IMG/VR virus record: IMGVR_UViG_3300047328_000012
Coordinates: 1-20,496 of that record
Direction: 5' to 3' (one strand)
DNA length: 20,496 bases
Origin: a virus
Part shown: positions 1 to 20,496 of the stretch, piece by piece
How positions within the stretch are numbered: position 1 is the first letter of the stretch
How the letters are laid out: every line of letters begins with the position of its first letter
The notes under the pieces: model-generated
What the model was told of the DNA's origin: nothing
Database searches by the model: none
Seen by the model: only the letters and a program-made list of their open reading frames with translations
Translations under genes and position numbers: made by a program

Positions 1-1422
1 CCCGCCGCCACCGCCGCCGCCTGAAATGGCAACCGTGAGCGTGCCGCTGCTGAATGTGGCGCTGACGCCCGAGCCGACAAAGTTGAGCGTTGACACCGCA
101 CCAGAGCCGCCGGCGGCCACACCTTCATCCTGAAACTGGATATTGCCTTGCTTGTTGGCGGCCGCGATCCGAGCATCGGCCGCCGAATTGAAATCAGAAA
201 TGAAGGTTGCTGTCTTTGTGCCGATGAGATCGGCCGCGCTTCCACTGAACGCCAGAGCCGAGAGATCGTTGAAATACTTTTGGGCCTTTCCGAATGCAGT
301 CAAGATGCTGTCAGCTGCCGCGATCGCTGTCCGCGCGCCGGCGGCCGCAAAACCTGTGAGCACCGAGGCGCGCACGCGCGGCTCTGTGAAATACTGATTG
401 GTCCCCTCGCCGATGTTTGTCGTCGTGAGCGTCACCGCGCCAGTCTGGCCGTTGACCGACAGCACGAGATCAGTCGGCGTGAGCAGCTCCTGCCAGTCGG
501 AGAGCGTTGCCGGATTTCCGCCGCCGCCCAGGACAAAGGACTTGTTGAGATCGGTGCGGATCGCGATATCGCCCGTCTCGGCCGTAAGCGCCAGCATTGC
601 CGCTTGGCTGGCAACCACAAAGCGATCGGTGATCGCGATCGCCGGCAGCTGCGATGTCGGGATTTTTCCGCCGGCATCGAGCGTTGCCAGGCCGCTCGCA
701 ACTGCCTTTTGCGCCGTGATCCGAGCATCGGCGGCCGAGTTGAAATCCGAAATGAAGGTCGCCGTCTTTGTTCCGCCGAGATCGGCCGCGTTGCCGCTGA
801 AGGCGATTGCCACCAGATCATTGAGCCACTTGCCGAGCTTGTTGAATGCACCGAGCACGCTATCGCTTGCGGCGAGTGCCGTGCGCGATCCAGATGCAGC
901 ATAGCCGGTGAGCAAAGACGATCGCACGCGCGGCTCTGTGAAATAGAGATTGGTGCCTTCCGGTACGAGCGCCGTCGTGTAGTTGAGCGATGTACGCGCG
1001 GCGGCGACATCGGCCGAGCCTAGTAGAGAAAGGCCGAAAGTGCCGGCCTGGCTGTCGTCGAGCTTGGCATTGAGCGCCGCCTGCAGATCGGTTTGGTTGG
1101 ATAGCGTGCCGCCGATCAGCCCCCAGAGAGTGCCAGGAATGAGTGTCGAGAGATCGACAAGATCGATCCAGGCGATATCCCCCACAAGTCGATACTGCAG
1201 CTGGTCGCCCAGGACACGATATTCAGGATTGCGGCCGGCCGTGCCGGGAATGTTTCCGATGGCGATACCTGTACTGCCGGAGGCCTCGATCTGCAGGCCC
1301 GTCGATCCGACAGGAACGAGATTGAGTGTGCCCCCGCTCGGGTCGCTGATCTGCAGCGTCGAGGAGTTTCCTACCCCGAGCTCAATCGTAACCTCAGATG
1401 CAGCGATCAGCGAAAGGCTCAT
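1..1422 (-). CDS. Fibre-like protein with internal 81-residue repeat, 3' end beyond the left edge
   Basis: This is an open frame of 474 codons that starts at an ATG one base after the previous stop and runs off the left edge. The N-terminal 130 residues are beta-rich (TIELGVGNSSTLQISDPSGG onwards). An 81-residue unit beginning EGTN-YFTEPRVR occurs at residues 155 to 235 and again, ungapped, at 339 to 419. Between the copies is a segment I recognise from phage fibres: AMLALTAETGDIAIRTDLNK, then LSDWQELLTPTDL and SVNGQTGAVTLTT. The last visible residues are strands followed by a run of seven Gly at the edge, which suggests a glycine-rich linker or tip. The likely role is a second receptor-binding fibre or fibre extension. 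The product is inferred from motifs; the C-terminus and any chaperone are unseen. Confidence 0.83.
   Translation of the reverse strand, partial: MSLSLIAASEVTIELGVGNSSTLQISDPSGGTLNLVPVGSTGLQIEASGSTGIAIGNIPGTAGRNPEYRVLGDQLQYRLVGDIAWIDLVDLSTLIPGTLWGLIGGTLSNQTDLQAALNAKLDDSQAGTFGLSLLGSADVAAARTSLNYTTALVPEGTNLYFTEPRVRSSLLTGYAASGSRTALAASDSVLGAFNKLGKWLNDLVAIAFSGNAADLGGTKTATFISDFNSAADARITAQKAVASGLATLDAGGKIPTSQLPAIAITDRFVVASQAAMLALTAETGDIAIRTDLNKSFVLGGGGNPATLSDWQELLTPTDLVLSVNGQTGAVTLTTTNIGEGTNQYFTEPRVRASVLTGFAAAGARTAIAAADSILTAFGKAQKYFNDLSALAFSGSAADLIGTKTATFISDFNSAADARIAAANKQGNIQFQDEGVAAGGSGAVSTLNFVGSGVSATFSSGTLTVAISGGGGGGG
166..408 (-). repeat. Intragenic repeat unit, copy 2 (81 codons)
   Basis: This is the second in-frame unit, with no insertions or deletions relative to copy 1. 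Substitutions are mostly conservative at protein level and often synonymous at DNA level, which suggests an old duplication kept by selection for fibre structure. Confidence 0.85.
718..960 (-). repeat. Intragenic repeat unit, copy 1 (81 codons)
   Basis: This is the first of two in-frame 243-base units in the fibre-like gene, offset by 552 bases from copy 2. Both share EPRVR, a D-S-L/I-L helix region, and a GTKTATFISDFNSAADARI end. At the DNA level, 23 bases are identical at 923-945 and 371-393. Confidence 0.85.
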
Positions 1423-1423
1423 G

Positions 1424-1750
1424 TCAGTCGGCCACGTTGATAACGCCGGTGCCTGTCGAGGCCAGCGTGTTGTCAGCATTCCAGATGTTGATCGTCGTCG
1501 CGATCTGCGTCGGATTGTTGAGAGACGTGAGGTTTGCGGCCGTCACGTCATAGCTGAATTCACCGGTCGCAACGCCGAGCTGCACGCCGGAACCGAGCGC
1601 GAGCGTGATCACGGCATTCCCGTTGACGAGCTTCACTTCGATCGATCTCGAGGTGAGGTCCATCGGCCCAGAAATGCCGGCGATCACCTCAGTCGCGAGA
1701 CCCTTCATGCGCGTTGTGTGCGCCTTCTTGTAAACTGCCGTGCCTGACAT
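1424..1750 (-). CDS. Small beta-rich protein between lysis genes and distal fibre, function unknown
   Basis: This is a 108-residue protein. After a basic start (SGTAVYKKAHTTRMKG) it reads as a run of beta strands: EVKLVNGNAVITLALGSG, GVATGEFSYDVTAANL, TTINIWNADNTLAS and TGTGVINVAD. The alternating pattern is reminiscent of the small immunoglobulin-like domains found at the start of baseplate or fibre proteins (BppU N-terminal type), but that is a weak resemblance. Two ATGs in tandem overlap the preceding stop; the second (1750) was chosen because GGAGG is 5 bases upstream of it. One base separates its TGA from the following fibre-like gene, so the two are probably made together and may act together on the tail. 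Confidence 0.7.
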   Translation of the reverse strand: MSGTAVYKKAHTTRMKGLATEVIAGISGPMDLTSRSIEVKLVNGNAVITLALGSGVQLGVATGEFSYDVTAANLTSLNNPTQIATTINIWNADNTLASTGTGVINVAD

Positions 1751-2103
1751 CATGCCCTCCGCTTTGGCTGTGTTGCGAGGAGCTTCACGGCATCGCTGAT
1801 ATCTGAGCGCAAACCATGGATCTCCGTAGTCAGCCCGTCGATGCGCTTCAAAACGCGATCCTCGAGGTCGCGAAGGTAGCCATTGCGGGCGTAGTCCTTT
1901 GCAACCTCTGTCTTGTATTCCGCGAGATCAGCTCTCACGGCATCGATATTGCGCTGAGCATCGGCCGTAACCGCATCGATCTTTTTTTGCGCGTCATCTC
2001 TCACCTTGGAGATCGCCGCCTCAAGCCGCCACCACAAGCCGGCAAGAGCCATGATAAGACCGGCGAGAGAGGCAAGATCGGCAAAGGTAATTGGCCCGCT
2101 CAT
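1750..2103 (-). CDS. Membrane-anchored coiled-coil protein, possible spanin-like lysis protein
   Basis: This is a 117-residue protein with one N-terminal transmembrane segment (residues about 8 to 25, ADLASLAGLIMALAGLWW), followed by a nearly continuous charged helix to residue 110. Two 11-residue tandem units (DAQKKIDAVTA and DAQRNIDAVRA) suggest a hendecad-type coiled coil. A motif KDYARNGYLRDLEDRVLKRI follows. An N-terminal anchor plus periplasmic coiled coil is the layout of inner-membrane spanins such as Rz, and the gene ends the lysis cassette. However, no embedded or adjacent outer-membrane lipoprotein gene was found, so a complete spanin pair is not shown. The ATG overlaps the holin-candidate stop (ATGA), and its own stop overlaps the next start. 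Confidence 0.72.
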   Translation of the reverse strand: MSGPITFADLASLAGLIMALAGLWWRLEAAISKVRDDAQKKIDAVTADAQRNIDAVRADLAEYKTEVAKDYARNGYLRDLEDRVLKRIDGLTTEIHGLRSDISDAVKLLATQPKRRA

Positions 2104-2504: not shown

Positions 2505-2506
2505 GA

Positions 2507-2803
2507 TCAGCCGCTGCCTACTGCCTTCTTGGGACCACGCATGCGGAAAAACATGTTGGCAGCAGCAACGGCAAACAAGATCGCGCCGACTTGTTTCGGC
2601 TGCAGTATCTTGTCCCAGGGCAACACCTGAGCGCCGTCCACGAATTCTTTCAGGGCGTCGAGGAGCTGGCCGAGGCCGAAGGGCAGGCCCGCGAGGAAAT
2701 TCGTGATCACCGTTCCGTAAGTCGGGAAGTAGTGATCGATGATGAAGTAGAGCGCGATCAGGATCATGAGCGCGATCAGAACCCACATGAGAAAATCAAC
2801 CAT
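2507..2803 (-). CDS. Small membrane protein in the lysis cassette, holin candidate
   Basis: This is a 98-residue protein with an N-terminal transmembrane helix (residues 4 to 23, DFLMWVLIALMILIALYFII). A central amphipathic part (LGQLLDALKEFVDG) is followed by a weaker second hydrophobic segment (VGAILFAVAAANMFF, 72 to 86) and a basic C-terminus. It has no family signature I can name. The ATG at 2803 overlaps the endolysin end by 8 bases, with GGG 8 bases upstream; an in-frame TTG at 2821 is less likely. Two membrane passes, a basic tail and coupling to the endolysin fit a holin or antiholin, but the neighbouring 134-residue protein is an equal candidate. Confidence 0.72.
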   Translation of the reverse strand: MVDFLMWVLIALMILIALYFIIDHYFPTYGTVITNFLAGLPFGLGQLLDALKEFVDGAQVLPWDKILQPKQVGAILFAVAAANMFFRMRGPKKAVGSG

Positions 2804-3626
2804 TCTTTTGCCCTTTCGCAATGATGATGGAGATAAACAGGATTGCAGCGATCACGCCGGCCCCGAGGAGAACGTAGGCCCAGGGGAAACCGCTCGCGGC
2901 CGCTGCAGCGCCGGCAGCGACACCGCCGGCGATGCCACCCGCTGCCGCCTTGCCGGCGGGCGGAGGAGCAGGCACCTCGACATCAATCGCGGCCGGCTCA
3001 TTCTTGCCGGCCGGCGGATCGATCGGCACATCAGCCGAGGGCTTTATTTCATCTGCCGGCATGCGCGCCGCCTCGAGCACCTCGAGGATCAGGCGATGCC
3101 ACCGCGCGAAGGCCTCGGCCTTGTCGGTGCCGTTGATGATGCGGCGCGCGCCGATCGGATCATCGACACCCTCGCCAAAGTATCGCGCGAGGCTGTGAGG
3201 CTTGCCTTTCTTGTCCTTGGCAAACATGCCGTCGAGCATGCCGACAAAAAGGATATCGACCGCGATCACAGGCACGAGCGCGAGATCGGGATTTTCCGCG
3301 AGCGGAATGTTGAGAGCGCGGCCGAGCTTCTCGTAGTTTTCGAGCCAAGTGAGCTGCACGAGGCCTCGCCCATAGTAAACCCGCTTGCCATTGACCGGCT
3401 TGCCATAGTCCTTGCCCTTGCCGCGACCGATCTCGCGCACCGGCCGCCACTGGCATTCTCCCCAGGCCGTGGCAAGCATGTAGGCTAGGAAACGCGGATC
3501 GGGCAGCTCGCGGCGCTCGAACTCATCGAGCAATGCGCCGATGATCTCCACCTGAGTTTTATCGAGCCCCTTCGATGCGAAGCGAGCCCGAAGGCCATCG
3601 AAAACTTTTTTGCGATCAAATCTCAT
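2796..3626 (-). CDS. Endolysin, GH19 chitinase-like, with C-terminal membrane anchor
   Basis: This is a 276-residue lysis enzyme that cleaves the peptidoglycan glycan strand. The catalytic domain spans residues about 8 to 185 and has GH19-type motifs: MLATAWGECQWRPVREIG with likely catalytic Glu57 and Glu65, YYGRGLVQLTWLENYEKLG (84 to 102), PLAENPDLAL, and RRIINGTDKA near 161 to 170. It is followed by a Pro/Glu/Asp-rich linker (about 195 to 222), a Gly/Ala-rich stretch (224 to 246), and a strong transmembrane segment, WAYVLLGAGVIAAILFISII (249 to 268), ending in a short basic tail. It has no N-terminal signal peptide. A C-terminal anchor is unusual for this class. GAGG lies 6 bases before the ATG. 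The last 8 bases overlap the next gene. Confidence 0.87.
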   Translation of the reverse strand: MRFDRKKVFDGLRARFASKGLDKTQVEIIGALLDEFERRELPDPRFLAYMLATAWGECQWRPVREIGRGKGKDYGKPVNGKRVYYGRGLVQLTWLENYEKLGRALNIPLAENPDLALVPVIAVDILFVGMLDGMFAKDKKGKPHSLARYFGEGVDDPIGARRIINGTDKAEAFARWHRLILEVLEAARMPADEIKPSADVPIDPPAGKNEPAAIDVEVPAPPPAGKAAAGGIAGGVAAGAAAAASGFPWAYVLLGAGVIAAILFISIIIAKGQKNG

Positions 3627-3644
3627 GTTGAGCCTCAGTAAAAA

Positions 3645-5006
3645 TCAGGTCGCCAGAGGCAACTCAAAGCCGCGCACGTAAATGTTAAAGACGGTTGCAT
3701 CGACATGCTTCCGATAGATCGTTTGCGCCGTGAAAACAGGAATATCCCAATTCCCCCCACAGTACTCGCCATCTATCAACGTGCCGGCACCGGTGTTTGT
3801 GATGATTTCGGCAATTGCGTATGCGCCCGCGCTATCAGACGAAAGACGCAAGCCTCTCGAGGAGTTCACGGGAATTGTCACGCGTCCGAAAGCGCGAACC
3901 GCTATAGCAGGAACTGCGATCGCAATTGAAAGCGCCGTCCAGGATGTCACGCCAGCTGGATTGAAAAGCACATCAACCTGGTGAACAAGCCTGCCAAAGC
4001 TCCGCGTTGTGCGGAAATTGCTGCTCGCGTCATTGTAAACAGCGCCGACGAGAGCCTTGAATGTGTACGCGCCGAGCGTTGCGCAATCCACCGCCGATGT
4101 CGAAAAGAGGCCGGCGACATTCGTCCCGTCAGAAACAACCCAAAGATAATACCAGGTCGAGGCCGCTTCCGTTCCAGTGTCGAGGCTGTTGAGGCCGGCA
4201 GCGCCCATTGTGATCGCCACATTCACGCCGCTCAACAGCAAGCCGATGCCGCCGCCATCCTTCACAATGAGCTCGTCGGCCGTCACGAGCATTTTGGTGA
4301 GCGGCGTCACGGCGTCATTCGCTGTCCTCAGGTTGCGCGAAAAGCCCCTGATCCCACCCGTCACACCCGAGGCAGGGTGAGTGTGGACAGCAAGAGCAAA
4401 CGCCGTCGAGGGCTGTGTTGCAGCCGAACCGAGGCCCAGATTGGTGCGCGCCGTGGCCTGATTGGCGAGGCCCGCAAGATTTCCGGCTTTCGTGAGGTAG
4501 CCGCTCGGATCGACACCGAGCGCCTGGATCGCCGTCAACGCGGCCTGGGCAGACGCGGCCGAAACTGCAGCTTGCGAGGCAGCATCGCCGGCAACGATGC
4601 CAGGCAGCGCCTTCAATGCGCGCCTCAGCTCCTGCAGGTTGACAGTGAAGGCCGAAAGCTCGCGCTCGAGCTGATCGATATCGAGCGCCTGGCCCTTGGA
4701 GACGGCGAGCTCGCGGCGCGGGAGGCGATCACCCGTCACGCGAATTTGCGTTGCGGACGTGATCGCCGAGGCGAATGCAATGCTGAAAGTTGAATAGACG
4801 GCCGAGGGATCGGTTTTCGTGACCGTTACCGTCGCCGGCACCCAGGGATCGGTGCCAGGCGAGGCGGCGCGCGTCTCGACCAGGACATCGGCAACGTCAA
4901 AAATGCCCCATCCGTCGCCGAACGGGCCATAAGTCGTTGAACCATTCCCCAGGAAAACGGCCGTCTGCCGAAGGGATGCCGGGATCGGAAAAGGTGTATC
5001 GGCCAT
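3645..5006 (-). CDS. Tail fibre protein with T7-like N-terminal attachment domain
   Basis: This is a 453-residue fibre protein. Residues 1 to about 100 resemble the T7 gp17 N-terminal virion-attachment domain: TAVFLGNGSTTYGPFG, a IFDVADVLVETR strand, an SIAFASAITSATQIRVTG block and a following DRLPRRE. Residues 108 to 135 form a short coiled coil (LDIDQLERELSAFTVNLQEL). Next comes the fibre-shaft repeat AGLANQATARTNLGLGSAAT (about 178 to 197) and an HTH (H-x-H) motif at 208 to 210, seen in metal-binding fibre tips. The C-terminal half has WYYLWVVSD and AGLFSTSA (residues about 285 to 304), typical of a beta-rich tip domain. The start at 5006 was preferred over 5033 because the latter gives a nine-residue extension before the recognisable MADTPFPIP end. 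It acts in host receptor binding. Confidence 0.85.
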   Translation of the reverse strand: MADTPFPIPASLRQTAVFLGNGSTTYGPFGDGWGIFDVADVLVETRAASPGTDPWVPATVTVTKTDPSAVYSTFSIAFASAITSATQIRVTGDRLPRRELAVSKGQALDIDQLERELSAFTVNLQELRRALKALPGIVAGDAASQAAVSAASAQAALTAIQALGVDPSGYLTKAGNLAGLANQATARTNLGLGSAATQPSTAFALAVHTHPASGVTGGIRGFSRNLRTANDAVTPLTKMLVTADELIVKDGGGIGLLLSGVNVAITMGAAGLNSLDTGTEAASTWYYLWVVSDGTNVAGLFSTSAVDCATLGAYTFKALVGAVYNDASSNFRTTRSFGRLVHQVDVLFNPAGVTSWTALSIAIAVPAIAVRAFGRVTIPVNSSRGLRLSSDSAGAYAIAEIITNTGAGTLIDGEYCGGNWDIPVFTAQTIYRKHVDATVFNIYVRGFELPLAT

Positions 5007-5047
5007 GCCAAGCTCTCGCGTTTGGCGAAACATGCGCCACGCCGGCC

Positions 5048-5063: not shown

Positions 5064-7613
5064 CTAGCGCCCGATCGCATTCCCCACGTTTGGCGATCGC
5101 CTGGCCGGCAGATTGCGCCCATCCGGCGTGAAGGAGCCAGGCGGAATGAAAAACGGCATGCCGTCCTTTTTGGCCTTGTCATAGCGGCGCTTAAAGGCCT
5201 TGTGCGCCTTGGGATCGGTTGCCCATTGGAGGTTATCGAGCACCACCCTACTCCACGCGAGCCGCGTCGAGGGATGGCTCGAGAAAACCGGCGTCCACCG
5301 CTGCAGATACTGGCGCGCCGAGCTGGCGCGATTGTCAGGCTGCAGCGCCATTGCCCAGACCAGGTTGAAGCTGTCGCCAAGAAAGGCGATGCCAGGCCCG
5401 GCCAGGCTCTCGATCATCGACTGCCCAAACCGGTTTTCGGTCATCTTCACGAAATCGCCGAACAGGCCAAAGCCGCCGCCGGTGAAAAGCGCCTTGCCCC
5501 AGAATGCCGCGTCCATCGTCTCAGGGTCTTTGCCGTCGATCATGTTCTTGATCTGGATATAGGCGGCCGCGCCGAGCGTGAGCGGCACCACCAGGGACGC
5601 GAAATAAGCCGCACCCTGCCTCAGGCTGCCACCAGGCCCGCGCGATCCCATTTCGGCAAGCGCCTCCATCTGCAGGGACGTGAACGACAGGCCGAAGCTC
5701 TTGAACTGCAGAAAGTAATCAAGGAGCTCGCCGGGCAGCGTGCCGCGTTGCTGGCCGGCCGACACAACCGCCCGCGCATTCGGCGTGCCCGAGGGAACGC
5801 TCCGTTCGGACCAGCTCGAGGTGAGCTCTGCCAGCTTCTCGGCCGCGCGCCGGTGCGCTGTCGCCTTTGCCTCGCTCGCGATCTGGGCCGGCGTTGCTGT
5901 CGCGGCGTCGATGTACTGCACGGCACCGCCGCGCCTGGCGATCTCCATGGGCGTCACGAAGCCGGCCGCGTCGATCGACTGCGACCAGATATCCCAATCC
6001 TCTTTCGTGATGCCGAAGCCCTCGAGCGTGCGCTTCAAACGCGGATCGATCTTGTCGAACGTCACGCCGTCTTTTGCGAGATCGGCAATATGCGCCTGCC
6101 AGGCGCGCGCCTCCACGAGCTTGCGGCCCGTTGTGAGCGGCTTCAACCCGTTCAACATCATCGTGCGATCGGCAACCCATTTCGTCCACTCAGCGCCGAC
6201 CATGGGCCCGGCAAATCGGAGCTCGTCTGCCATCACATGCATGTACTCATCCCAGATCACGCCGGAACGAATGATCTCCTCGCGGCTCTGCCGGCTGATC
6301 ATCTGCAGCATGCCAGGCATGGACTTGGCAAACGGAAGGCCGGCGAGCTTGCGCGAGGCACGCGCGATAAATGGATCGGTGACGGCCGCCAGGATGCCGG
6401 TCGCACCGAGCACGGCCGACGAAGCCAGATTTTTGACCGAGGCCGTGAAGGATGCGGCACCGCCGACCACCGTCCCATTGCCGCGCAATGAATGCCAGAG
6501 CCAATCAAGATATGCCGAGGCCGCCTTTGCCTCGCTCTGCGATCCATCCATCAGCGCAATCTTGCCGGCCTTGCTCGCGTAGCCGGCGCGCTTCTGCCCC
6601 ATCTCGCGCTGCACAACCTGGCGCATCCACTCGACCATTGCATCGGGATTTGGACCGAGGAGCTCCATGGCGGCAATGTCGCGGGACATCGAATTCACAT
6701 GCCCGAAAATGGCCTGGATCACATCGCCCCGGCCGAACTGGCGATGATACTCCATCCAATCGCTTCCGCTCTTGAACACAAAGAAGCGATGATCTTGCCG
6801 GCGAGACGAGATCGAGCCGGCACCCATCGGCCGCGATGTCGGCGTGAGCCATGCCGCGCTGTCGCTCACGATCTGATCATAGGCATGATCGAGCGCCTTC
6901 TCGAGGTTGGCGATGCTGATCGGGTACGTTGTGTACTTGTCGATGATCTTCGATCGCTCGAGGAGCGGCCGGATCGCATTCTTCCAGCCGTCGCGCCCCA
7001 TGGCCTTTACCTTCGCGTTGTCGTGGCTGTGCGGCAGCGCAAAGCCCTCGAGCTTTGGCATGTTGCCGCCGGCAGCGTTGAACCGCTTGCGGAGGTCCTC
7101 GAACAGCTTTTCGATGCCGTTCGCGAGCGTGACCGCGACAGGATTGCCGGCCTGGCCGCCGTGAAGGCTCTCGATCACATCGCGCAACAGCGCCTGATTT
7201 TCGCGCTTGCCCAGGACGCCCTTGCGGCGAAAGACATTCATGAAATCGGAGAGCTGGCCGTGCGCCGTGGCGATGATCGCCTCAGTCAGACCGCGAACCG
7301 AGGAGCCGTTGCGAAAGCCGTAGTGCGAGAGCACCGACTTTGCGGCCGTAAAGAAATCCTCCTCCTGCATGAACCGCTCTTTGAGCCGGCCCTGGGCATT
7401 TTCAGTCAGGAGAGCGCGCCGCTCGATCTCGATCGCATCGTCGCGCAACGCCTTCTCGAGGGCCTTCTTTGCCTCCTGCATGGCAAGCGCATCACCGACA
7501 GCCTGCTTGCTCGCCTCGAGGTAATCGTCAAACTGCCGCGCCAGATCATCGGCCTCGCTCTGGCTGATCTCGCCCTGGGCTGCTGCCGAATTGAGACAGT
7601 CTCGGATTGTCAT
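5064..7613 (-). CDS. Large internal virion / DNA ejection protein
   Basis: This is an 849-residue protein, last of the ejection set before the tail fibre, the position of T7 gene 16. The N-terminal 110 residues are charged helices (ALAMQEAKKALEKALRDD). A mid-region hydrophobic helix, about 386 to 416, reads SAVLGATGILAAVTDPF. The C-terminal third has LLDYFLQFKSFGLSFTSLQ (about 628 to 650), a motif I recognise from large podovirus internal proteins. It also has a membrane-like segment SLVVPLTLGAAAYIQI (about 670 to 690), GGGFGLFGDFVKM, and a basic Pro/Arg-rich end (NLPARRSPNVGNAIGR). No transglycosylase motif is present; that domain is on the 943-residue protein. The ribosome site is GGAGG, 9 bases upstream of the ATG. 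The TAG stop is followed two bases later by the second promoter-like motif. Confidence 0.82.
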   Translation of the reverse strand: MTIRDCLNSAAAQGEISQSEADDLARQFDDYLEASKQAVGDALAMQEAKKALEKALRDDAIEIERRALLTENAQGRLKERFMQEEDFFTAAKSVLSHYGFRNGSSVRGLTEAIIATAHGQLSDFMNVFRRKGVLGKRENQALLRDVIESLHGGQAGNPVAVTLANGIEKLFEDLRKRFNAAGGNMPKLEGFALPHSHDNAKVKAMGRDGWKNAIRPLLERSKIIDKYTTYPISIANLEKALDHAYDQIVSDSAAWLTPTSRPMGAGSISSRRQDHRFFVFKSGSDWMEYHRQFGRGDVIQAIFGHVNSMSRDIAAMELLGPNPDAMVEWMRQVVQREMGQKRAGYASKAGKIALMDGSQSEAKAASAYLDWLWHSLRGNGTVVGGAASFTASVKNLASSAVLGATGILAAVTDPFIARASRKLAGLPFAKSMPGMLQMISRQSREEIIRSGVIWDEYMHVMADELRFAGPMVGAEWTKWVADRTMMLNGLKPLTTGRKLVEARAWQAHIADLAKDGVTFDKIDPRLKRTLEGFGITKEDWDIWSQSIDAAGFVTPMEIARRGGAVQYIDAATATPAQIASEAKATAHRRAAEKLAELTSSWSERSVPSGTPNARAVVSAGQQRGTLPGELLDYFLQFKSFGLSFTSLQMEALAEMGSRGPGGSLRQGAAYFASLVVPLTLGAAAYIQIKNMIDGKDPETMDAAFWGKALFTGGGFGLFGDFVKMTENRFGQSMIESLAGPGIAFLGDSFNLVWAMALQPDNRASSARQYLQRWTPVFSSHPSTRLAWSRVVLDNLQWATDPKAHKAFKRRYDKAKKDGMPFFIPPGSFTPDGRNLPARRSPNVGNAIGR

Positions 7614-7958
7614 TTATTCGTACCTCCACGTCGAGATTACAGGCAGGCGCTCAAACTTTCCTGCCAAGTCGTGAGTGCAATCCGAGAGGAATTGCATTAC
7701 GCCATCCTTCACGAAGGAATGACACACAAGAGGTTTTCTTTCGACCTTCTGGCCGGCGAGCACTTTGTCTGCCTCGGCGTCAGTCAGCCTAACAAAGCCG
7801 GTGACGAGGACGGACGGCGAGAATGTCGGGTTCACAGTGTCGCCGTTCCATTGCCAGCCGCTAGGCTCTGTTGTGATCGAATGCAATTCGCCGCAACCAG
7901 GACACCAGAAATTGAGCCCCTTACTGCCACCGCCTACCCACGACTTTACGACATCCAT
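7614..7958 (-). CDS. DUF6527-like small zinc-binding protein
   Basis: This is a 114-residue protein of the small family often labelled 'ammonia monooxygenase' in phage annotations and now called DUF6527. It has the family pattern: CPGCGELH (C19, C22, H26), WNGD and NPTFSPSVLV, then CHSFVKDG (C79, H80) and DCTHDLAG (C94, H96) near the end. The Cys/His set suggests a structural zinc site. Its biochemical role is unknown; the old name has no relation to ammonia oxidation that I can support. The tandem ATG ATG overlaps the preceding stop, and I chose the second ATG because AAGG is 7 bases upstream of it. The gene sits inside the ejection-protein block, and the next gene starts immediately after its TAA. 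Confidence 0.85.
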   Translation of the reverse strand: MDVVKSWVGGGSKGLNFWCPGCGELHSITTEPSGWQWNGDTVNPTFSPSVLVTGFVRLTDAEADKVLAGQKVERKPLVCHSFVKDGVMQFLSDCTHDLAGKFERLPVISTWRYE

Positions 7959-12576: not shown

Positions 12577-12580
12577 TGGT

Positions 12581-13117
12581 TCACCGCTGATTGAACAAAG
12601 AAGCAGTATTGAAAAGAGCTTTAGTGCCACCTTCCAGCCACCCCATGAGTTTTGCGGACTTGGCAGCCAGACGGAAATTCGCCGCCTTTTCCGTGAGGCG
12701 AGCCAGTCGCTGTTGCGTTGTGGAGCTGTCAGTTGTCAGGCCGAGATCGGCCTCTCGATAAACCTTTTGCCGCGCCGCCTGGGCCGAGCCGAACGAGAGA
12801 TCGACGCCGCTACCGGCATAGGCAGCATTGATCTCGCCTTTCGCATCGGCGGCCGCCGCAAGAAGGCTCCGCTTGCGATCGACACTCTGCACCGTCTCGA
12901 ATGTCTTTTCGGCCTCGGCATCCTTTGCCTGCATTTCCAGAGCGGCGGCCTGCTGATTGCCCGAGGAAATCGCCGCTACCAAGCCGCCGACCGTCGCGAT
13001 GCCCTGCAGCACCGAGGAGATCGAAAGGCCGGTCGATGCCGCTCCGGCCGCCGCGCCGGCACCAGCTGCAGCGCCGCCGCCCGTCAAGAGTGATCCCACA
13101 GCTGTTGCCAGGAACAT
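12581..13117 (-). CDS. Internal virion protein, gp14-like (ejection protein)
   Basis: This is a 178-residue protein in the T7 gene 14 position. T7 gp14 is an internal core protein released into the outer membrane during ejection. The N-terminal 55 residues are hydrophobic and rich in Gly/Ala/Ser (MFLATAVGSLLTGGGAAAG onwards), including VLQGIATVGGLVAAIS, compatible with membrane insertion. A helical, Ala/Gln-rich coiled-coil-like region follows (residues about 55 to 95), then AAYAGSGVDLSFGSAQAAR. That segment resembles the 'ayagSGv....Gs....' stretch common in podovirus gp14 homologues. The start at 13117 overlaps the stop of the nozzle gene (TAATG) and has a GGGGAG ribosome site; the frame extends upstream, but those codons overlap the nozzle gene. 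Four bases separate its stop from the next gene. Confidence 0.82.
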   Translation of the reverse strand: MFLATAVGSLLTGGGAAAGAGAAAGAASTGLSISSVLQGIATVGGLVAAISSGNQQAAALEMQAKDAEAEKTFETVQSVDRKRSLLAAAADAKGEINAAYAGSGVDLSFGSAQAARQKVYREADLGLTTDSSTTQQRLARLTEKAANFRLAAKSAKLMGWLEGGTKALFNTASLFNQR

Positions 13118-15564
13118 TAGAGGCTCTCCCCGATGGTTATATCCCTGACGTGAAGCTCGCCGGGGAACGTCTGAGTGATAACGCCAGTCGTTCCGGTCAC
13201 ATGACCAGGAATTCCGATGCGCCTCACGGTTTTGGTTTTCGCTTGCGGCGGGAGGCTCACGTTGTCGGTCACGTCCCACAGCGGCACATTCTCAGGATTG
13301 CTCGAATTTGCTCCGATCGCGATGCTCGTTGTTCCAATTACGGCAACACCCATGGAGTGAATGCGCCCCGGCCGCTGAATGATCTCGTCCTGCCGCGTGA
13401 TGAAAAATCTCGGCATGCTCTCGAACACCGGCGGAAGCCATGGCCCGACTTGCGCCTCGCCGCTGTAGGAATTCCCGAGATCAATACGGCCGCCGGCAAC
13501 CGTGAAAGGCCCAAGCACATATCCCTCGGCCGTGCGCGCCCAGACCGACTTGCCCTCATAGATGGAAAGCCCATCGATCACGCCGCTCAAATCTGGCGTG
13601 CGGAGGAGTGCGCCTTTGAAATAGGTTGCGCGATCCAGCCGATGGTGGCGAGGCTTGCCGTCGAATTCAATCGCGATCCGCACGTCATTTGCAGCGTCAA
13701 CGTGAACCTCGCGCGCGAGCCATCCGGCCGGCAACACCCACTCATGGAACCCAAGCACCTCCTGGCTCTGGATCACGCTTGCAACGATCACGCGACCATC
13801 GGATCGCAGGAACCAGGCGCGACTTGCATCAGCCTTATTCGTGGAGGCTTGGCCGCAGGAGCGGATCACGAGATCGACCAGGTGCCCGGCCAGCAAATGC
13901 TCTGGCACAGCCTCGAATTTCGTGTCGATCTCACTGTAGGAGAGAGAAAGGATTTGATGCCCGCTCGGCGGATTTGAATTCGGATTGACGCCGACATAAT
14001 AGATCTTCCCCTCGAGGTCGATCGGCATGCAATTCGGAACCGTTCCCACGCTGGCCGTGCGCGCAAAGTTTACCGGCTGATCTGCAGCGAGCGTGCGATT
14101 TGCAGCGAAATAAATTGCCTTGTCAGTCATGACCAGGAGATACGTGCTTTCAGCAAATGCGAGCACGCGCTCGAGGACGTTTCCGCCCCTCAGCTTGTCA
14201 AGCCTGGCGGCATCGCTGCCGGCAGCGTCAATGTTGAGATTGAAATAGTTTGCAGCGGCCGACATCGAGAGCGCGGGCGGGATCGGGAGATCGCCATAGA
14301 GCAAGCGATCCTGAGCGAACCCGAACACACCAGGCCACCCCCGAGAGCTAGAGAGCAGCGGCTCGAAATCCGTCTCTCCGATCTGCATGTGCGAGGCGAG
14401 CGCCGCCACAGTTGCCGTATTGGTGATGATTGCGGACAGCTGTCGTTCGACGCCCGACAGATTGCCGCCGAAAGTGATCGTCATTTTTGACGGAGAGGTG
14501 AGGCTGGCGATCGTCACCGTCACCGTTGCGCCAAGTGACGGAAGCGCCTCGAGCGCCGCCTTTATCTTGGCCGCAGTCGTGGCGGCATCGGCCGATCCGA
14601 TCGCGACCGGCACATTACTCGCGTTCACAAAGGGGATGCCCGGCGTTGTCTCTCCATCGACAGTTATCTCGATCGTCGCGAGCGGCGTGCCGGTCCAAGT
14701 GACATTGACCTCCCAGATATCATCTGTCTTTGTGTAGATCGCGCCATAGTCTGCCGTGGGCACACCCTCATAAGGCCACAAGTCTTGCACCCAATCGAAC
14801 ACGGTATCGCCGCGCCTGATGCGGATCGTCTCGAGGTTGTTGCGCGCAATTCCGAGCGTTGCACCTTCGGCGTAGAAATTGACGCCCGGCAGAATGTCGG
14901 CCGTGATGCCAGGAAGATACACGCCGCCTATGAATTCATCATCGCGCCAGACATCGAGAAATCCAGCCTGCAGAGAGAAGAAATACCGATCGCCACTGTC
15001 ATGCTTGAGCGAGCTGTAGCGCGGCGCATCATAGGTCGAACCCTCGGCAAGAATTGTCACCGCGCCGACACTGACAGTTGCAACAGCCGACAAGTTAGCG
15101 AGGAGCCGCACGCGCGTTGCCGGCTGAGCGGAGCCCGGCGCGATTGCAAATGTTTTCTTCTGGGCCACACCACCAAACGACAATGGATTTCCGAAATTGA
15201 TCCAGGCACCGTTGACCATGACCTGGGCTTGAACAGTGTGAGCACCAGTTGAGGCCGAGAGGCTGTCCACATGGATTGCAGCAACATTGCCGACCACGAG
15301 CGCCTGATAGATTTCGTTCACACCCGCAAACGGTCCAGGCGAATTGAACGAGCTCGTTGGCACCAGCACATCGAGACGCGCCCGCACCGGGCCGTTGTCA
15401 AAGCTGCCGGCCATGCGGCGAAAGCCGGAAAGCGGAACCGGCTCGATATCTTTGAAGCGCAGTCCGGCCGAGTAGAACTGTTTGATGTCAGCGCGGCCGG
15501 CGGCATCCGGCGAGAGCTCACCGGCATTTGCGCTGCGAAATGGTGCCTCGCCGCGCGCGACCAT
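13117..15564 (-). CDS. Tail tubular protein B (gp12-like nozzle)
   Basis: This is an 815-residue protein in the T7 gp12 position and close to its length (794 residues); gp12 forms the hexameric nozzle below the adaptor. The N-terminus carries the family signature (NAGELSPDAAGRADIKQF) and then SGFRRMAGSF, comparable to 'GG..RRPGT'. The body is beta-rich, as expected of a propeller-like nozzle protein, with repeated aromatic/Gly motifs such as GVFGFAQDRLLYGD. Residues about 284 to 390 look like an inserted Thr/Ala-rich beta domain (TVTWTGTPLATIEITVDGE onwards). I chose the ATG at 15564 because it sits one base after the adaptor stop; an in-frame GTG at 15597 would overlap that gene by 32 bases. 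The stop overlaps the next start as TAATG. Confidence 0.85.
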   Translation of the reverse strand: MVARGEAPFRSANAGELSPDAAGRADIKQFYSAGLRFKDIEPVPLSGFRRMAGSFDNGPVRARLDVLVPTSSFNSPGPFAGVNEIYQALVVGNVAAIHVDSLSASTGAHTVQAQVMVNGAWINFGNPLSFGGVAQKKTFAIAPGSAQPATRVRLLANLSAVATVSVGAVTILAEGSTYDAPRYSSLKHDSGDRYFFSLQAGFLDVWRDDEFIGGVYLPGITADILPGVNFYAEGATLGIARNNLETIRIRRGDTVFDWVQDLWPYEGVPTADYGAIYTKTDDIWEVNVTWTGTPLATIEITVDGETTPGIPFVNASNVPVAIGSADAATTAAKIKAALEALPSLGATVTVTIASLTSPSKMTITFGGNLSGVERQLSAIITNTATVAALASHMQIGETDFEPLLSSSRGWPGVFGFAQDRLLYGDLPIPPALSMSAAANYFNLNIDAAGSDAARLDKLRGGNVLERVLAFAESTYLLVMTDKAIYFAANRTLAADQPVNFARTASVGTVPNCMPIDLEGKIYYVGVNPNSNPPSGHQILSLSYSEIDTKFEAVPEHLLAGHLVDLVIRSCGQASTNKADASRAWFLRSDGRVIVASVIQSQEVLGFHEWVLPAGWLAREVHVDAANDVRIAIEFDGKPRHHRLDRATYFKGALLRTPDLSGVIDGLSIYEGKSVWARTAEGYVLGPFTVAGGRIDLGNSYSGEAQVGPWLPPVFESMPRFFITRQDEIIQRPGRIHSMGVAVIGTTSIAIGANSSNPENVPLWDVTDNVSLPPQAKTKTVRRIGIPGHVTGTTGVITQTFPGELHVRDITIGESL

Positions 15565-15565
15565 G

Positions 15566-16192
15566 CTATGCAAACCTCGCCTGAGTGAGGGGATCACGAT
15601 CGAGGAAGCCGCGCCCCTGAGGCTGAGCCTGGATGTTGATGGCGATCAGCGCGCCGAACAGACCGCCGCGATTGCGATCGGCTGGCGGGCCGAGCGCCTG
15701 GGCGCGATAGGATGCCGCGAGCTCCGTATCCTGCAGGAGCGGCACCGCGAGATCGCTGGCGAGCAGCATCGCGAATGCCTCTTTGAAACCTTCATCCCAA
15801 TAATCAGGATCGACCAGGCCCTTGCATCGAACCCATACCGGCTCGACATTTGTGTAGAGAAACCCGCCTTCGATCATGAACTCGCGGAGATACTGCTCGC
15901 GAACGACATCAGTGAGCACGGCGACTGGATCGCCAATGCGCGTTGCCGGCAGCTGAAACCCGAATGCCCATCCGTTATTCGGCGTCTCTGCAAGTTTGTT
16001 TGTTGCATAGGTCTTGCGCGCGATGCTCCAATCGAAAAGGGACATCGCAAGCGCAACAGTGCCCGGCCACACTGTTTGCACAATGCCGCCGAGCGATGTC
16101 GTTGTGTCGAGAGAAAAAGCCGCCGCACCCTGGCCGAGCTTCACAAGCGCGCGGTTGGCGACTGCCACCATGCTCTGGGTCATCTCTGCCAT
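15566..16192 (-). CDS. Tail tubular protein A (gp11-like adaptor)
   Basis: This 208-residue protein matches the podovirus gp11 adaptor in size (T7 gp11 is 196 residues) and in recognisable features. It has an N-terminal NRALVKLGQG segment, a FDWSIARKTYATNK helix like the 'W..A....aL' helix of the family, and a GFQLPATRIGDPVAV segment equivalent to 'LP.D..R'. The helix FKEAFAMLLASDLAVPLLQDTEL matches the family pattern of a C-terminal helix rich in LAs and LA. The adaptor forms the dodecameric ring between the portal and the nozzle. GGAG lies 8 bases before the ATG. The gene ends one base before the likely start of tail tubular protein B. Confidence 0.85.
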   Translation of the reverse strand: MAEMTQSMVAVANRALVKLGQGAAAFSLDTTTSLGGIVQTVWPGTVALAMSLFDWSIARKTYATNKLAETPNNGWAFGFQLPATRIGDPVAVLTDVVREQYLREFMIEGGFLYTNVEPVWVRCKGLVDPDYWDEGFKEAFAMLLASDLAVPLLQDTELAASYRAQALGPPADRNRGGLFGALIAINIQAQPQGRGFLDRDPLTQARFA

Positions 16193-16595: not shown

Positions 16596-17498
16596 TTACG
16601 GGCCGCGAACGACAGCCGTGATCTTCTGCAGGAGCGTGCGGCGAACGAGCTTCGCCTGGATGCCGATGGCGGCAGCCGAGAGCTGAACCTTCATCTGCCA
16701 GGGCGTGCCCTGCAGATCAGGGCGCGGGGTCATTGTCACATTCTCGAGATTGACCACGGTATTCGCGCCGAGGGCGCTCCGCTTCCACATGTAGGTGATC
16801 AGCTGTGTCGGCTGGCCTGCAGGAGAATTGAAATAGCTGTCCGGGCAAACGAGATAGGTGATGTTGCGGACAGTTTTCATCTTCATGCGCTGAGCGTTCC
16901 CCCAGGAGAGGCCGTCAGGGCCAGCCCATTGCGTGTTGGCCCATTCCTTGTAAAGGCTGAGCTGAGACGACCACATTTCCGGGATCATGCAGAACGTGGG
17001 ATCGCCGTAATCGTCGGTTCCGAGGCCCGCGATTTCTGCCCGCATCTTTTCAAAGTGCAGGAGATCGGGAACTTCGGCGCCGGTGCCGGTCGTGAGAATG
17101 TTTGCACCACCGTCAGCGGCATAGAATGCATCGAGGGCCCGGCGACGGATGGCATCGCGTTCACGGCGAACCGCCTTGGCGAGGAGCTCGGCAAGTGTTG
17201 CCTGCTCGTTCGGGCCGGCCTTGTAGGCATCCTGGGTGCGCCAGAATTCAGTGCCTTCGTAGTCGTCCATCGTGATCTGAACGGTCGTGAGGCCGGGGTT
17301 GCTCACCGGCACCGCTTCGATCGCGCCGGTCAGCTTGTACATGCTCGAGGTGCCGGTCGCGATCGGGAACTTGATCGTGTTGGCTTCCTGGTCGCCGTTG
17401 ATGAAGGTGTTATCGAGAAGGCCGCCGTTCGCCTGGACGGCGATCGTCACCTTGTCGAGAATTTTTTCTTTGAACCAAGCAGAAATCTGCTGTGACAT
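16596..17498 (-). CDS. Major capsid protein
   Basis: This is a 300-residue protein directly downstream of the scaffold and set apart by intergenic regions on both sides, as expected for the most abundant virion protein. The start has a strong ribosome site (GAGGA, 8 bases before ATG). The sequence suggests a mixed alpha/beta protein: an N-terminal helix (ISAWFKEKILDKV), a loop rich in Gly/Asn, and a charged helix (LLAKAVRRERDAIRRRALDAFY) that could be the spine helix of an HK97-type fold. Beta-rich stretches follow, including ITYLVCPDSYF and NLENVTMTPRPDL. It is shorter than T7 gp10A (345 residues). I see no slippery site that would give a gp10B-like frameshift product. The identification is by context and general character, not by a diagnostic motif. 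Confidence 0.82.
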   Translation of the reverse strand: MSQQISAWFKEKILDKVTIAVQANGGLLDNTFINGDQEANTIKFPIATGTSSMYKLTGAIEAVPVSNPGLTTVQITMDDYEGTEFWRTQDAYKAGPNEQATLAELLAKAVRRERDAIRRRALDAFYAADGGANILTTGTGAEVPDLLHFEKMRAEIAGLGTDDYGDPTFCMIPEMWSSQLSLYKEWANTQWAGPDGLSWGNAQRMKMKTVRNITYLVCPDSYFNSPAGQPTQLITYMWKRSALGANTVVNLENVTMTPRPDLQGTPWQMKVQLSAAAIGIQAKLVRRTLLQKITAVVRGP

Positions 17499-17592
17499 GA
17501 TGAAATCCTCATTGCTGTGCTTCGTTTGCGCAACGTCGAGGGATAGCCAGCCGTTGAAGGGGTCCTGTGAAGGATAGCCCGCCCGTGCCGGG

Positions 17593-17632: not shown

Positions 17633-17636
17633 GAAA

Positions 17637-17650
17637 GCCGTCAAGTGAGG
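17637..17650 (-). promoter_or_regulatory. Promoter-like motif upstream of the capsid gene (copy 1)
   Basis: On the minus strand this reads CCTCACTTGACGGC. It contains CTTGAC, the usual -35 box of alphaproteobacterial housekeeping promoters. Fifteen bases after TTGACG comes TAGGTT, a poor -10 box. It starts one base after the scaffold stop codon. A copy with one mismatch lies at 5048-5061 in front of the tail fibre gene. Whether the host or a phage RNA polymerase reads it cannot be told from the sequence. Confidence 0.42.
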
Positions 17651-17651
17651 A

Positions 17652-18599
17652 TCAGTCGCCGTAGAACTGCTTATATTTGGCATCGAGCGCCTTGGCCTTT
17701 TCCTCATATCCAGGCTGGCCTCGGAGAGCTTCGACGGCGGCTTGCTCGGCGCGCAAGCTTTCGCGGGTCACTCCGCCGGCCGGCGAGCCTCCACCGCCGC
17801 CATTTGGCCCGTTGCCGCCGCCTTGGCTCAGGCCGCGCACCCACTCGAAAAACTGGTGCCCTTTTGCGCTGTCGCCAAGCATGAGCTCGGCATATTTTCC
17901 CGCCTCGGCCGGCAATCCCATGTTCTGCGATGCAAGCGACAGGAAATCATAATTCTCCTGCATGCGCTTGTCGATCGCCGCATCCTGCCCCTTAGGGTCA
18001 AGGCTCTTTGCGGTATCGGGCAGAAGGGCCGCGCGCTCGGCCTTCGGATCGATCGGCGGCTCAAGAAGCCCGGCCTCGGAGGCAGCATTGAGAAAATTCT
18101 GGTAGAGGTTGCCCACGGCGCGCCGGCCGATCCCGTCCTTGATCGCGGCCTCGGCGACAGTCTTGAACAGCGGATCGCTCTTGAGCGCATCAAAATAGGG
18201 CTGATTTTTCTCCTCGATCTTGAAATCGGGGATCTTCCCGAAATCAACCATTTCCTCGAAAGTTTTCACAACGTCGCGCTTGCTGTCGAGCTGGCGATAG
18301 CCATCGAGGGCCTTCTGGTTTTCGGCGATCCGCTTTGCGATGTTGTCGAGCGTTGTCTTGCTGTCGGCACCCTTGAAACTTGGATCGAGCCCCTCAGGCC
18401 AATAGTCGCCGCCGGCAGGAGCGCCGCCGGCAGCCCCTGCAGCATCGCCCGCCTGGGCAGCTGCTGCAGGGGCGCTCCCGTCGCCAGCCGCAGGGGCATT
18501 GCTCTGGCCGGAACCGCCAGGACCGGAACCGTCGCCGCCGGCACCGCTGCCGGCACCGTCAGGGCTCAGAAATCTCGAGATCATCAGAAAGCGTTGCAT
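17652..18599 (-). CDS. Capsid scaffolding (assembly) protein
   Basis: This is a 315-residue acidic protein placed directly before the major capsid gene, the T7 gene 9 position. Scaffolds form the internal core around which the procapsid is built and are lost before or during packaging. Residues about 14 to 65 are a low-complexity Gly/Ser/Ala/Pro tract. The WPEGLDPSFKG motif and a helical, charged body follow, then a second Gly/Asn/Pro linker near 265 to 280. The C-terminus is a charged helix ending KALDAKYKQFYGD; scaffolds usually contact the capsid protein through such a C-terminal helix. The start at 18599 follows the previous stop by three bases and has an AGGGG ribosome site. No sequence motif is diagnostic by itself, so the call depends on composition, length and position. 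Confidence 0.82.
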   Translation of the reverse strand: MQRFLMISRFLSPDGAGSGAGGDGSGPGGSGQSNAPAAGDGSAPAAAAQAGDAAGAAGGAPAGGDYWPEGLDPSFKGADSKTTLDNIAKRIAENQKALDGYRQLDSKRDVVKTFEEMVDFGKIPDFKIEEKNQPYFDALKSDPLFKTVAEAAIKDGIGRRAVGNLYQNFLNAASEAGLLEPPIDPKAERAALLPDTAKSLDPKGQDAAIDKRMQENYDFLSLASQNMGLPAEAGKYAELMLGDSAKGHQFFEWVRGLSQGGGNGPNGGGGGSPAGGVTRESLRAEQAAVEALRGQPGYEEKAKALDAKYKQFYGD

Positions 18600-18602
18600 G
18601 GT

Positions 18603-18974
18603 TTACCCCTTGTGTTGCGCATTGCGCAGTCGCTGGCCTTCGGCAACGGCGCGGCTCAGAACGTGACCAACACCCGCCCTGCCCGCATGTTTTGCCGCTG
18701 CAATTGCTGCCTCCTCGATCGCCTTGAAATCACCGGCCGGATATGGCGCGCGATCGGTAAGCGAGTGCAACCAGGCGAAAACCTTGCTGCCGAGCTCTGT
18801 CTGAGAATAGCGCGCGATCTCGATCAGGAGATCATCTTCGGGCCGGAAGGGATCGGCCGTGAGCGCCGGCGCGAAAGCCTGCTTGAACCACTCCCAACCT
18901 TGCGGCCCCTGGTCCTGGGCCGCCGTCTCGCGCTCCTGATCGCGCGCGCCAAAATGCGCAACCGGTCCACTCAT
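18603..18974 (-). CDS. Small conserved-position protein between portal and scaffold, function unknown
   Basis: I do not recognise this 123-residue protein. It starts at an ATG overlapping the portal stop (TGATG); the GTG one codon upstream is less likely. The N-terminal 30 residues are polar and Gln/Glu-rich. The rest is predicted largely helical, with a WEWFKQAF segment, the hydrophobic stretch DDLLIEIARY, and an Ala-rich helix (EEAAIAAAKHAG) before a basic C-terminus. It has no signal peptide or membrane segment. T7 has no gene between the connector and scaffold genes, so this is an insertion relative to the T7 order. Its place in the head block and its coupling to the portal suggest a role in head assembly or portal function, but this is inference only. 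Confidence 0.75.
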   Translation of the reverse strand: MSGPVAHFGARDQERETAAQDQGPQGWEWFKQAFAPALTADPFRPEDDLLIEIARYSQTELGSKVFAWLHSLTDRAPYPAGDFKAIEEAAIAAAKHAGRAGVGHVLSRAVAEGQRLRNAQHKG

Positions 18975-20496
18975 CACGCGGCCGCCTGTCCTGTTTCAGA
19001 TGCAACAAGGCCCTGAGCAAGCTGAGGAGCGGCGCGGGTTGCCATTTCGGCCATGACAGCATTGCTCTGCTGTTGGGCAACCGCCTCATCGATCTTTGCG
19101 CGCTGCTCCTCGTCAGGAACCAGGCGCTTCGGGATCATCATTGCATCGGCAACCTCGTCGCCGCTCTCGTCAATGTCGAGGTGACGCGGCAGCTTTTCGG
19201 AACCGCCGGCGAGCGCGCGCATCATATCCGCATAGCTCATGATGTTTTTCACGCGCTGAGCATTCATCGCGGCCGCCATGGGCGAGCGCACGCCGACTGT
19301 CGTCACGAGCTCGTTGAAATTCATGAGCCCGCCGAGATAGCCGAACGAATTGAGGATTTCCGCACAACGCGGAACGATATCGGGATGGAGCTCGCGCCAA
19401 AGACGCATGAAGCCGCCGAGGTGAACGCGGCTTTCCTGCTCGAGCAAGCCGGCAATCTCGGAGGCCGATCGCGGCGTGCCCTGGGAGGGCTGCAACCGGC
19501 GATCCATGAGGCTCTCGCGGATTTGCGACTGCATGCCGTCGATCACCATGGAAGCTATGTCGAGCCGGCCGGCGGCAGGGTCAAGGCGCTGCACGTCTGG
19601 GCCGAGCATGCCGCCCGTCGATTGCATCGCCCAGAATGCCCCCGGTGCCATAGCCGCCGTGTCTGGATTGAATGTGCCGGCACGATAACCCCAGATACCG
19701 AGCATCTGGATTGCCGCCGACTTGAGAGCGAGCTCCTGGGCCTTGTTCACTGTCTTGATCGACGGGAGTGCGAGCAGGATCGGCCCACGTCCACGGAGCT
19801 CGCCGGCAACGCGGTAATAGCGCGGCGTTGCCACTGGCTTCGTGCGATAGATTTCGCTCGAGATAAACTCATGGCAGTCGCTGCTCATGTAGGCCCCGAA
19901 TTGCCAAAGCCCATCCGGCCGCCGCCAGAAATCTTGATAGACCTCGACCTCGCTGTAGCCCGTCGAGCCTTTGCACTTGGCTTTGAACTCATCCGAGAAT
20001 TTGCCCTTCGGGAAGGCATCGAGGAGCGCGCAACGCTCGACCATGCGTTTCCAGCTGACCAAGCCCACGCGGCCGTAAGCATCACCATAGAGCGCCACCT
20101 CGTCATTCGGCGGCGTGAAAAAGATGATCGGCTGATCAGGCGTCCCTCGCATCGGGATCATGACGGCGGTGCCGAGGCCGAGATCAATGCAGGCCTCGTG
20201 TGTTGCCGTGTCGAGATCGCCGGCCGTCATGAACGGCGCGATGAATTCTCCGGTCTGCTCGAGCTCGCGCTCGAGGCGCTTGAGCTTCTGAATGCCTTCT
20301 CGGCCCTCCTTCTTGAGAGCCATCGAAACGAGCGGACCAGGCGCGAGCACCGGCGGCTCGGAAAACAAGAGCCGCTGCAGCTCGCCGGCGAGGTGCATGG
20401 CGCTCGTGGGCCCGGTCATATCGAAAAGCTTGTCGGCCGTGCGCTTGCTCTTGCTCGCGCCGCCTGCCTTTCGGTTTGGCAGAACATAATCGTAGG
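18974..20496 (-). CDS. Portal (head-to-tail connector) protein, 5' end beyond the right edge
   Basis: This is the podovirus portal, the dodecameric ring at one capsid vertex through which DNA is packaged and ejected. The reading frame stays open to the window edge. A methionine at 20419 could be taken as the start, but the codons upstream of it read YDYVLPNRK and then DKLFDMTGPTSAMHLAGELQ. That matches the conserved N-terminal part of T7 gp8-type connectors, where a D-x-T-G/A segment precedes the 'LASGLQ'-like helix. The true start is therefore beyond 20496 and probably only a few tens of residues are missing; 507 codons are visible, against 536 residues for T7 gp8. The C-terminal half is helical and ends in an Ala/Gln-rich tail. 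The stop overlaps the next start as TGATG. The family call rests on motif, length and position before the scaffold and capsid genes. Confidence 0.88.
   Translation of the reverse strand, partial: YDYVLPNRKAGGASKSKRTADKLFDMTGPTSAMHLAGELQRLLFSEPPVLAPGPLVSMALKKEGREGIQKLKRLERELEQTGEFIAPFMTAGDLDTATHEACIDLGLGTAVMIPMRGTPDQPIIFFTPPNDEVALYGDAYGRVGLVSWKRMVERCALLDAFPKGKFSDEFKAKCKGSTGYSEVEVYQDFWRRPDGLWQFGAYMSSDCHEFISSEIYRTKPVATPRYYRVAGELRGRGPILLALPSIKTVNKAQELALKSAAIQMLGIWGYRAGTFNPDTAAMAPGAFWAMQSTGGMLGPDVQRLDPAAGRLDIASMVIDGMQSQIRESLMDRRLQPSQGTPRSASEIAGLLEQESRVHLGGFMRLWRELHPDIVPRCAEILNSFGYLGGLMNFNELVTTVGVRSPMAAAMNAQRVKNIMSYADMMRALAGGSEKLPRHLDIDESGDEVADAMMIPKRLVPDEEQRAKIDEAVAQQQSNAVMAEMATRAAPQLAQGLVASETGQAAA

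Follow-up and report, generated by a model that had tools for sequence, protein, structure and literature searches.

What removes every copy of one five-base site from more than twenty kilobases of viral DNA? The stretch analysed here (hereafter the window) is IMG/VR record IMGVR_UViG_3300047328_000012, positions 1-20,496, and the public record ends at the same length of 20,496 b. It is a fragment of a podovirus structural-gene region, and by exact count neither strand contains a single GANTC, the site of the cell-cycle methyltransferase CcrM. The explanation we favour, and regard as rather probable, is that selection works against GANTC in its unmethylated form, with restriction enzymes that cut the site as the simplest agent, so that phages of this kind either mask the site or delete it.

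The absence is far outside expectation under each null model. A maximal-order Markov estimate gives 48.7 expected sites and base composition alone gives 71.1, the latter agreeing with the figure of about 70 in an earlier reading made from the letters alone (the sequence-only reading), whose by-eye zero is now an exact one. Synonymous-codon shuffling of the 18.6 kb of coding sequence leaves 46.9±5.4 sites, with a minimum of 34 among 500 shuffles. GANTC is the most depleted of the 256 words of the form XYNZW, and no unrelated pentamer is lost equally, the next-lowest observed/expected ratio (O/E) being 0.50. The neighbouring words GANT[AGT] occur 172 times, matching the earlier impression of well over a hundred, and the proposed constraint on codon choice is visible directly: serine following Asp or Glu is encoded by AGC or AGT (AGY) in 29/29 cases, against 98/312 elsewhere. 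GATC is plentiful (259 sites in the window; pooled clade O/E 1.1-1.2), and the pattern is therefore not a general avoidance of adenine-methylation sites. So total a purge implies strong negative selection.

Relatives, prophages and hosts

The window encodes, on the minus strand, a connector, capsid, tail tubes, internal virion proteins and a tail fibre, and two of these genes supplied the queries through which relatives were found:

1..20496, no strand: GANTC-free stretch, the whole public record (0 sites)
18974..20419, minus: head-tail connector (portal), its frame running on to the record end (phrog_332, 4.6e-34); the query that gave 71 relatives
17652..18599, minus: scaffold-like protein, so called from its position between connector and capsid (no PHROG match; conserved in 42/43 records)
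16596..17498, minus: major head protein (phrog_3437, 1.3e-29)
15566..16192, minus: tail protein of the tail tubular protein A type (phrog_394, 6.8e-21; phrog_9239, 4.1e-9)
13117..15597, minus: tail protein, of the tail tubular protein B type by position (phrog_376, 3.7e-45)
12581..13279 (ending at 13117 in the overlap-free gene model), minus: internal virion protein (phrog_418, 5.9e-5)
9745..12630, minus: virion protein with a lytic transglycosylase domain (phrog_4067, 1.1e-22)
7958..9907 (ending at 9721 in the overlap-free model), minus: conserved virion-module protein, function unassigned (no PHROG match; 38/43 records)
5064..7613, minus: large virion structural protein, with which the search for relatives began (phrog_684, 4.2e-119)
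3645..5033, minus: tail-fibre-like protein (phrog_2282, 5.7e-8)
2796..3626, minus: putative lysis-module protein, from open reading frame and position

ARAGORN also calls a tRNA-Ile(TAT) at 9824-9913 on the minus strand, within coding sequence or at its margin, which is probably a false positive.

No near match to the window was found among 50,697 phage records. Protein searches returned three IMG/VR loci with virion proteins 52-55% identical to those of the window, together with related prophages in Tianweitania aestuarii and Aquamicrobium defluvii, both of which we take to be Rhizobiales, and alignment of the connector yielded 71 related loci. Across 74 loci GANTC O/E ranges from 0 to 0.87 and is at most 0.16 in over half, with four control palindromes, taken together, near 0.7-1.1. 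Distant connector relatives are undepleted (observed/expected 108/95.7 in Methylophilales phage MEP301, 92/90.4 in Vibrio phage 22O28-1 and 77/73.8 in Pelagibacter phage Hodr). For finer comparison we used 43 records, namely 42 whole relatives and the window, in which GANTC O/E runs from absent to host-like (0.00-0.72); these were divided into depleted and site-keeping records at an O/E of 0.26, a cut chosen post hoc.

Many of the relatives are prophages, and those that could be located sit in Rhizobiales genomes, where the loss of GANTC is confined to the prophage. The in-situ prophages of G192 (L228-L231) and G241 (L232-L235) each contain a 28-kb GANTC-free stretch, with 0-1 sites per 24 kb of prophage against 39-40 per 20 kb of left flank (~2/kb), and the prophages of G412 and G439 are likewise low. 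Two prophages that carry the methyltransferase described below, G006 (in Tianweitania) and G289, form no GANTC desert, and five more distant prophages lacking it have intermediate GANTC. These contrasts bear on the simplest alternative, in which the phages merely inherit a mild GANTC shortage from their hosts and experience no selection themselves. Host chromosomes do have a background O/E of 0.52 and 0.72, and methyltransferase-bearing relatives sit at that level; however, the window has 0 sites where about 47-49 are expected, and the depleted prophages are deserts within chromosomes of normal density. Inheritance is thus refuted for the depleted phages and extremely unlikely as a general account, though it could account for the O/E of 0.4-0.7 in the remaining phages.

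The hosts support the connection to CcrM that the sequence-only reading drew from the motif. A RAMA-domain protein, one per genome and with an open frame of 384-438 aa, the size of CcrM, is present in 7/7 host genomes tested, and among 14 control genomes only in Caulobacter; the RAMA domain is one that occurs at the C-terminus of CcrM. The host of the window would accordingly belong to a CcrM-bearing lineage. Since all seven hosts are positive for a CcrM-type protein, its presence does not separate the depleted from the site-keeping state. Nor does a strictly lytic lifestyle account for depletion, as tyrosine integrases are commoner in depleted records (19/24) than in the others (4/18).

The sites that survive in depleted records are unevenly placed. 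Their density is 1.46 per kb in intergenic DNA within 2.5 kb of the record ends, 0.32 in intergenic DNA further inside, 0.22 in genes that few records share and only 0.044 in conserved ones. Many are close to a record end or fall within singleton or tail-fibre-like genes, and one is part of a tRNA-like stretch. Those near the ends are probably in host flanks, and the overall pattern looks like gradual purging after the acquisition of new DNA. We considered whether conserved intergenic sites are kept as regulatory elements and rejected this, the residual sites sharing no common context. The tRNA-like stretch, in G009 (L110:17850-17960), contains one of the two residual sites of that record and lies upstream of a gene at 18143-19267; it is perhaps an attachment site.

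A phage methyltransferase and its opposition to depletion

Gene content was compared across the records of at least 30 kb, some 70 families in all, and one family (cluster 26; METHYLTRANSFERASE) was present in 14/18 site-keeping and 0/20 depleted records (Fisher 3.2e-7, or about 2e-5 after correction for the ~70 families). The association does not depend on a cut: in a threshold-free Mann-Whitney comparison over 128 palindromes GANTC ranks first (1.6e-6), more than two orders of magnitude ahead of the next, CCATGG (3.8e-4). General avoidance of 6-bp palindromes was tried as a cause and rejected, CCGCGG being low clade-wide independently of the methyltransferase. Several six-base palindromes are also scarce in the window itself (observed/expected: CCGCGG 0/11.5, AGCGCT 0/10.1, GGCGCC 1/18.4).

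Cluster 26 proteins carry an S-adenosylmethionine-binding motif, DPACGxGHM, and a catalytic NPPF, and every member matches phrog_799, annotated 'DNA methyltransferase'. They align to PhiLM21_p027 with an hhalign probability of 100% and 47% identity, and PhiLM21_p027 is published as GANTC-specific and shields DNA from HinfI (PMC5537653), as do unrelated phage enzymes of the same specificity (PMC5537653, PMC7139368). From this homology, and from the specificity of the statistical link, cluster 26 is predicted to be a small N6-methyladenine (m6A) methyltransferase acting at GANTC. Pfam searches miss the family, which is too divergent, and the N6/N4 and Dam methyltransferase families PF01555 and PF05869 have no member in the 42 records. 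The sequence-only reading had suggested looking for a phage-borne ccrM, and neither the window nor its relatives gave support for one.

In 14/14 carriers the gene adjoins the primase gene or is close to it. Where both of its usual neighbours were found, they are 725-3,596 bases apart in records with the gene and often separated by nearly nothing in records without it. Among the latter are the closest relatives of the window, G009 and G019, with a closed slot, and the genome from which the window derives presumably lacks the enzyme as well. There is no conserved nuclease partner beside the methyltransferase, whose steady neighbours are the primase and a helix-turn-helix-like protein.

The gene-content comparison also speaks to a further possibility, that the phages themselves make a GANTC-cutting nuclease, directed at the host chromosome or at rival phages, which forces the loss of their own sites. 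Such a gene could sit in the early region of the window's genome, which lies outside the record, and Mesorhizobium phage Lo5R7ANS offers a possible parallel, being GANTC-poor (8 vs 71.6 expected) and carrying an annotated BglII-like nuclease adjoining an adenine methyltransferase (L105:7233-8502). However, no family found in at least 4 records is present in nearly all depleted records and in no others (the closest is in 15/20 vs 3/18), and the families associated with depletion are mostly of ~110 aa or less and of unassigned function. We consider a phage-made nuclease very unlikely.

On a tree built from four core proteins, depletion switches five times and the methyltransferase six times. G036 (methyltransferase present, O/E 0.39) and G030 (absent, 0.31) adjoin G029 (absent, 0.02) inside a depleted group, as would be seen if sites had come back after a gain of the methyltransferase that was later lost in G030.

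Possible selective agents at the unmethylated site

Because carriers of the methyltransferase do not avoid GANTC, the harm appears to lie in the unmethylated site. This separates the three reasons for avoidance offered by the sequence-only reading: escape from a nuclease fits best, while the two that rest on harm from methylation, through host control or through the state of the phage's own promoters, predict the opposite of what is seen. In the fuller form of those two, methylated or hemimethylated GANTC would recruit GcrA and RNA polymerase or tie phage genes to the host cell cycle, and selection would act to avoid CcrM methylation. GANTC is indeed the CcrM site and all host genomes tested have a CcrM-type protein, and GcrA binding is methylation-dependent (PMC3667746). 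Yet carriers of a GANTC-type methyltransferase retain their sites, coding sequence is purged as well as promoters, and residual sites are commoner in intergenic DNA than in conserved genes, the reverse of what promoter-driven selection would produce. We judge this account improbable.

Under the restriction reading, the sequence of events would be as follows. The clade consists of podoviruses, many of them temperate and some residing as prophages in Rhizobiales chromosomes, and the CcrM of their hosts methylates GANTC. A copy of the site left unmethylated in phage DNA would then be a liability, and the simplest agents would be GANTC-specific restriction enzymes among these bacteria. CcrM acts late and in only part of the cell cycle, and replicating phage DNA is therefore probably undermethylated, not being methylated in time; hence even integrase-bearing phages would need to be purged. 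Such phages could carry a GANTC-type m6A methyltransferase by the primase gene and keep their sites at about host density, or lack the enzyme and lose the sites, of which the window would be an example. Phages often eliminate Type II sites, and DNA modification relieves this avoidance, which is not seen in phages with hydroxymethylated DNA (PMC6286503).

Several observations weigh against this reading, in addition to the post hoc cut. No GANTC nuclease turned up in any host, in searches that included no HinfI-type query. The SAR11 hosts of GANTC-depleted phages have no recognisable restriction-modification systems (Seong et al., PMC9516812), so a non-classical agent may be at work. Restriction-site avoidance is reported mainly, or more strongly, in non-temperate phages (PMC6286503), and here it is the depleted records that are rich in integrases. 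The record of the window stops short of the early region in which the methyltransferase would lie. Independent pairs on the tree show methyltransferase and depletion opposite in 3-5 and the same in 0, with p of 0.06-0.25, too few for significance. Finally, four records, G013 (L118-L120), G027 (L152-L154), G030 (L160-L161) and G045 (L197-L198), keep GANTC (O/E 0.31-0.48) without the methyltransferase, which our explanation does not account for. A methyltransferase of another type was sought in these four and rejected, ten early proteins being repressors, an antirepressor-like protein or without a match. In G013 (54,023 b), genes of 737, 153, 286 and 773 aa at ~1.3-7.3 kb recur at ~40.6-46.6 kb, which would fit either two copies of a phage in one record or a duplication made in assembly.

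The mask-or-delete trade-off would fit equally well if the factor acting on unmethylated GANTC were something other than restriction, such as a sensor of undermethylation or the stalling of CcrM at numerous unmethylated sites, analogous to Dam and MutH at GATC in enterobacteria. We know of no such GANTC-sensing factor; to our knowledge Alphaproteobacteria also have no MutH, and another agent would therefore be needed. In favour of this view, a link between mismatch repair and the loss of GATC from coliphages has been published (PMC5014478), and the apparent lack of restriction-modification systems in SAR11 hosts (PMC9516812) fits it too. We hold a non-restriction factor to be unlikely, and GANTC-directed restriction to be the better account. 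A broader proposition, which is tentative and in our estimate rather doubtful, is that across the Alphaproteobacteria CcrM also provides a 'self' mark for stand-alone GANTC nucleases or another surveillance factor. If true, cell-cycle methylation doubles as immunity, forcing phages to mask or delete GANTC. The trade-off itself directs the search to a GANTC-directed nuclease, or something that acts like one, in bacteria whose CcrM is known as an orphan enzyme.

Related systems and phages outside the clade

The sequence-only reading called the absence much stronger than ordinary palindrome avoidance. This holds for its size; in kind, comparable depletion has been reported, in PMC6286503 and in PMC9516812. 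The latter (Seong et al. 2022) describes GANTC depletion in pelagiphages and in a SAR11 proviral region and proposes escape from defence. As in our clade, a CcrM-type motif is lost from alphaproteobacterial phages, the loss is clustered on a connector tree, and it extends to an integrated provirus. Unlike the pelagiphages, the clade studied here belongs to high-GC Rhizobiales, its absence can be complete and is supported by codon-level controls, and depletion is linked to whether the phage has a methyltransferase, a link not met in the part of PMC9516812 drawn on here. The mask-or-delete trade-off appears to be new within the open-licence literature, PMC9516812 and PMC9836097 not reporting it in the parts that we draw on.

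Roughly one viral genome in ten shows near-elimination of restriction sites (Rusinov et al. 2018, PMC6286503), and the present case resembles those in that one short palindrome is nearly eliminated (O/E <0.1), with relief where phage DNA is modified. It differs in that the agent known here is a host methyltransferase of the orphan kind, with no cognate endonuclease identified, and in that most depleted members bear an integrase. Avoidance of GATC by enterobacteriophages such as phiX174 likewise concerns the site of an orphan host methyltransferase (PMC5014478), but there the site is GATC, which is normal in our clade, contrary to what Dam and MutH would produce. The site-keepers' family resembles the published phage CcrM-like methyltransferases (PMC5537653, PMC7139368) in its homology to PhiLM21_p027 and in its place beside replication genes, whereas the depleted lineage of the window is without the enzyme. 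Earlier authors considered the role of these enzymes regulatory or left it open (PMC5537653, PMC7139368), and the distribution found here points to a protective one.

A small, hand-picked set of phages outside the clade, some covered only in part, was also scored for GANTC. Of the phages of Rhizobium and Sinorhizobium, those that carry a related methyltransferase have an O/E of 0.44 (phiLM21), 0.53 (RHph_Y25) and 0.47 (RHph_N28_2), and RHph_I1_23 (0.56) has a 33% relative of the enzyme, a candidate only. Rhizobium phage RHEph04 (L225) carries queuosine-type biosynthesis genes and at 0.57 shows no avoidance beyond background, as one would expect were base modification another way of masking sites; its relative RHph_Y55 stands at 0.60, the queuosine-type genes being seen in RHEph04 only. 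Among phages without the clade's enzyme, O/E is 0.01 in RcTitan, 0.11 in Lo5R7ANS, 0.19 in Atu_ph02, 0.28 in RHEph01, 0.33 in OspP_OH and 0.46 in SIO1. Rhodobacter phage RcTitan (KR935213; L270 and L272), a lytic-type siphovirus unrelated to the window, has one GANTC in 44,496 b and no annotated methyltransferase; the related Burkholderia phage KL1, with a polymerase 51% identical to that of RcTitan, has 76 sites against 120.9 expected (38 kb), a contrast that counts in favour of our explanation. With the Rhizobiales prophages and this Rhodobacter phage, GANTC depletion is now seen beyond the marine pelagiphages.

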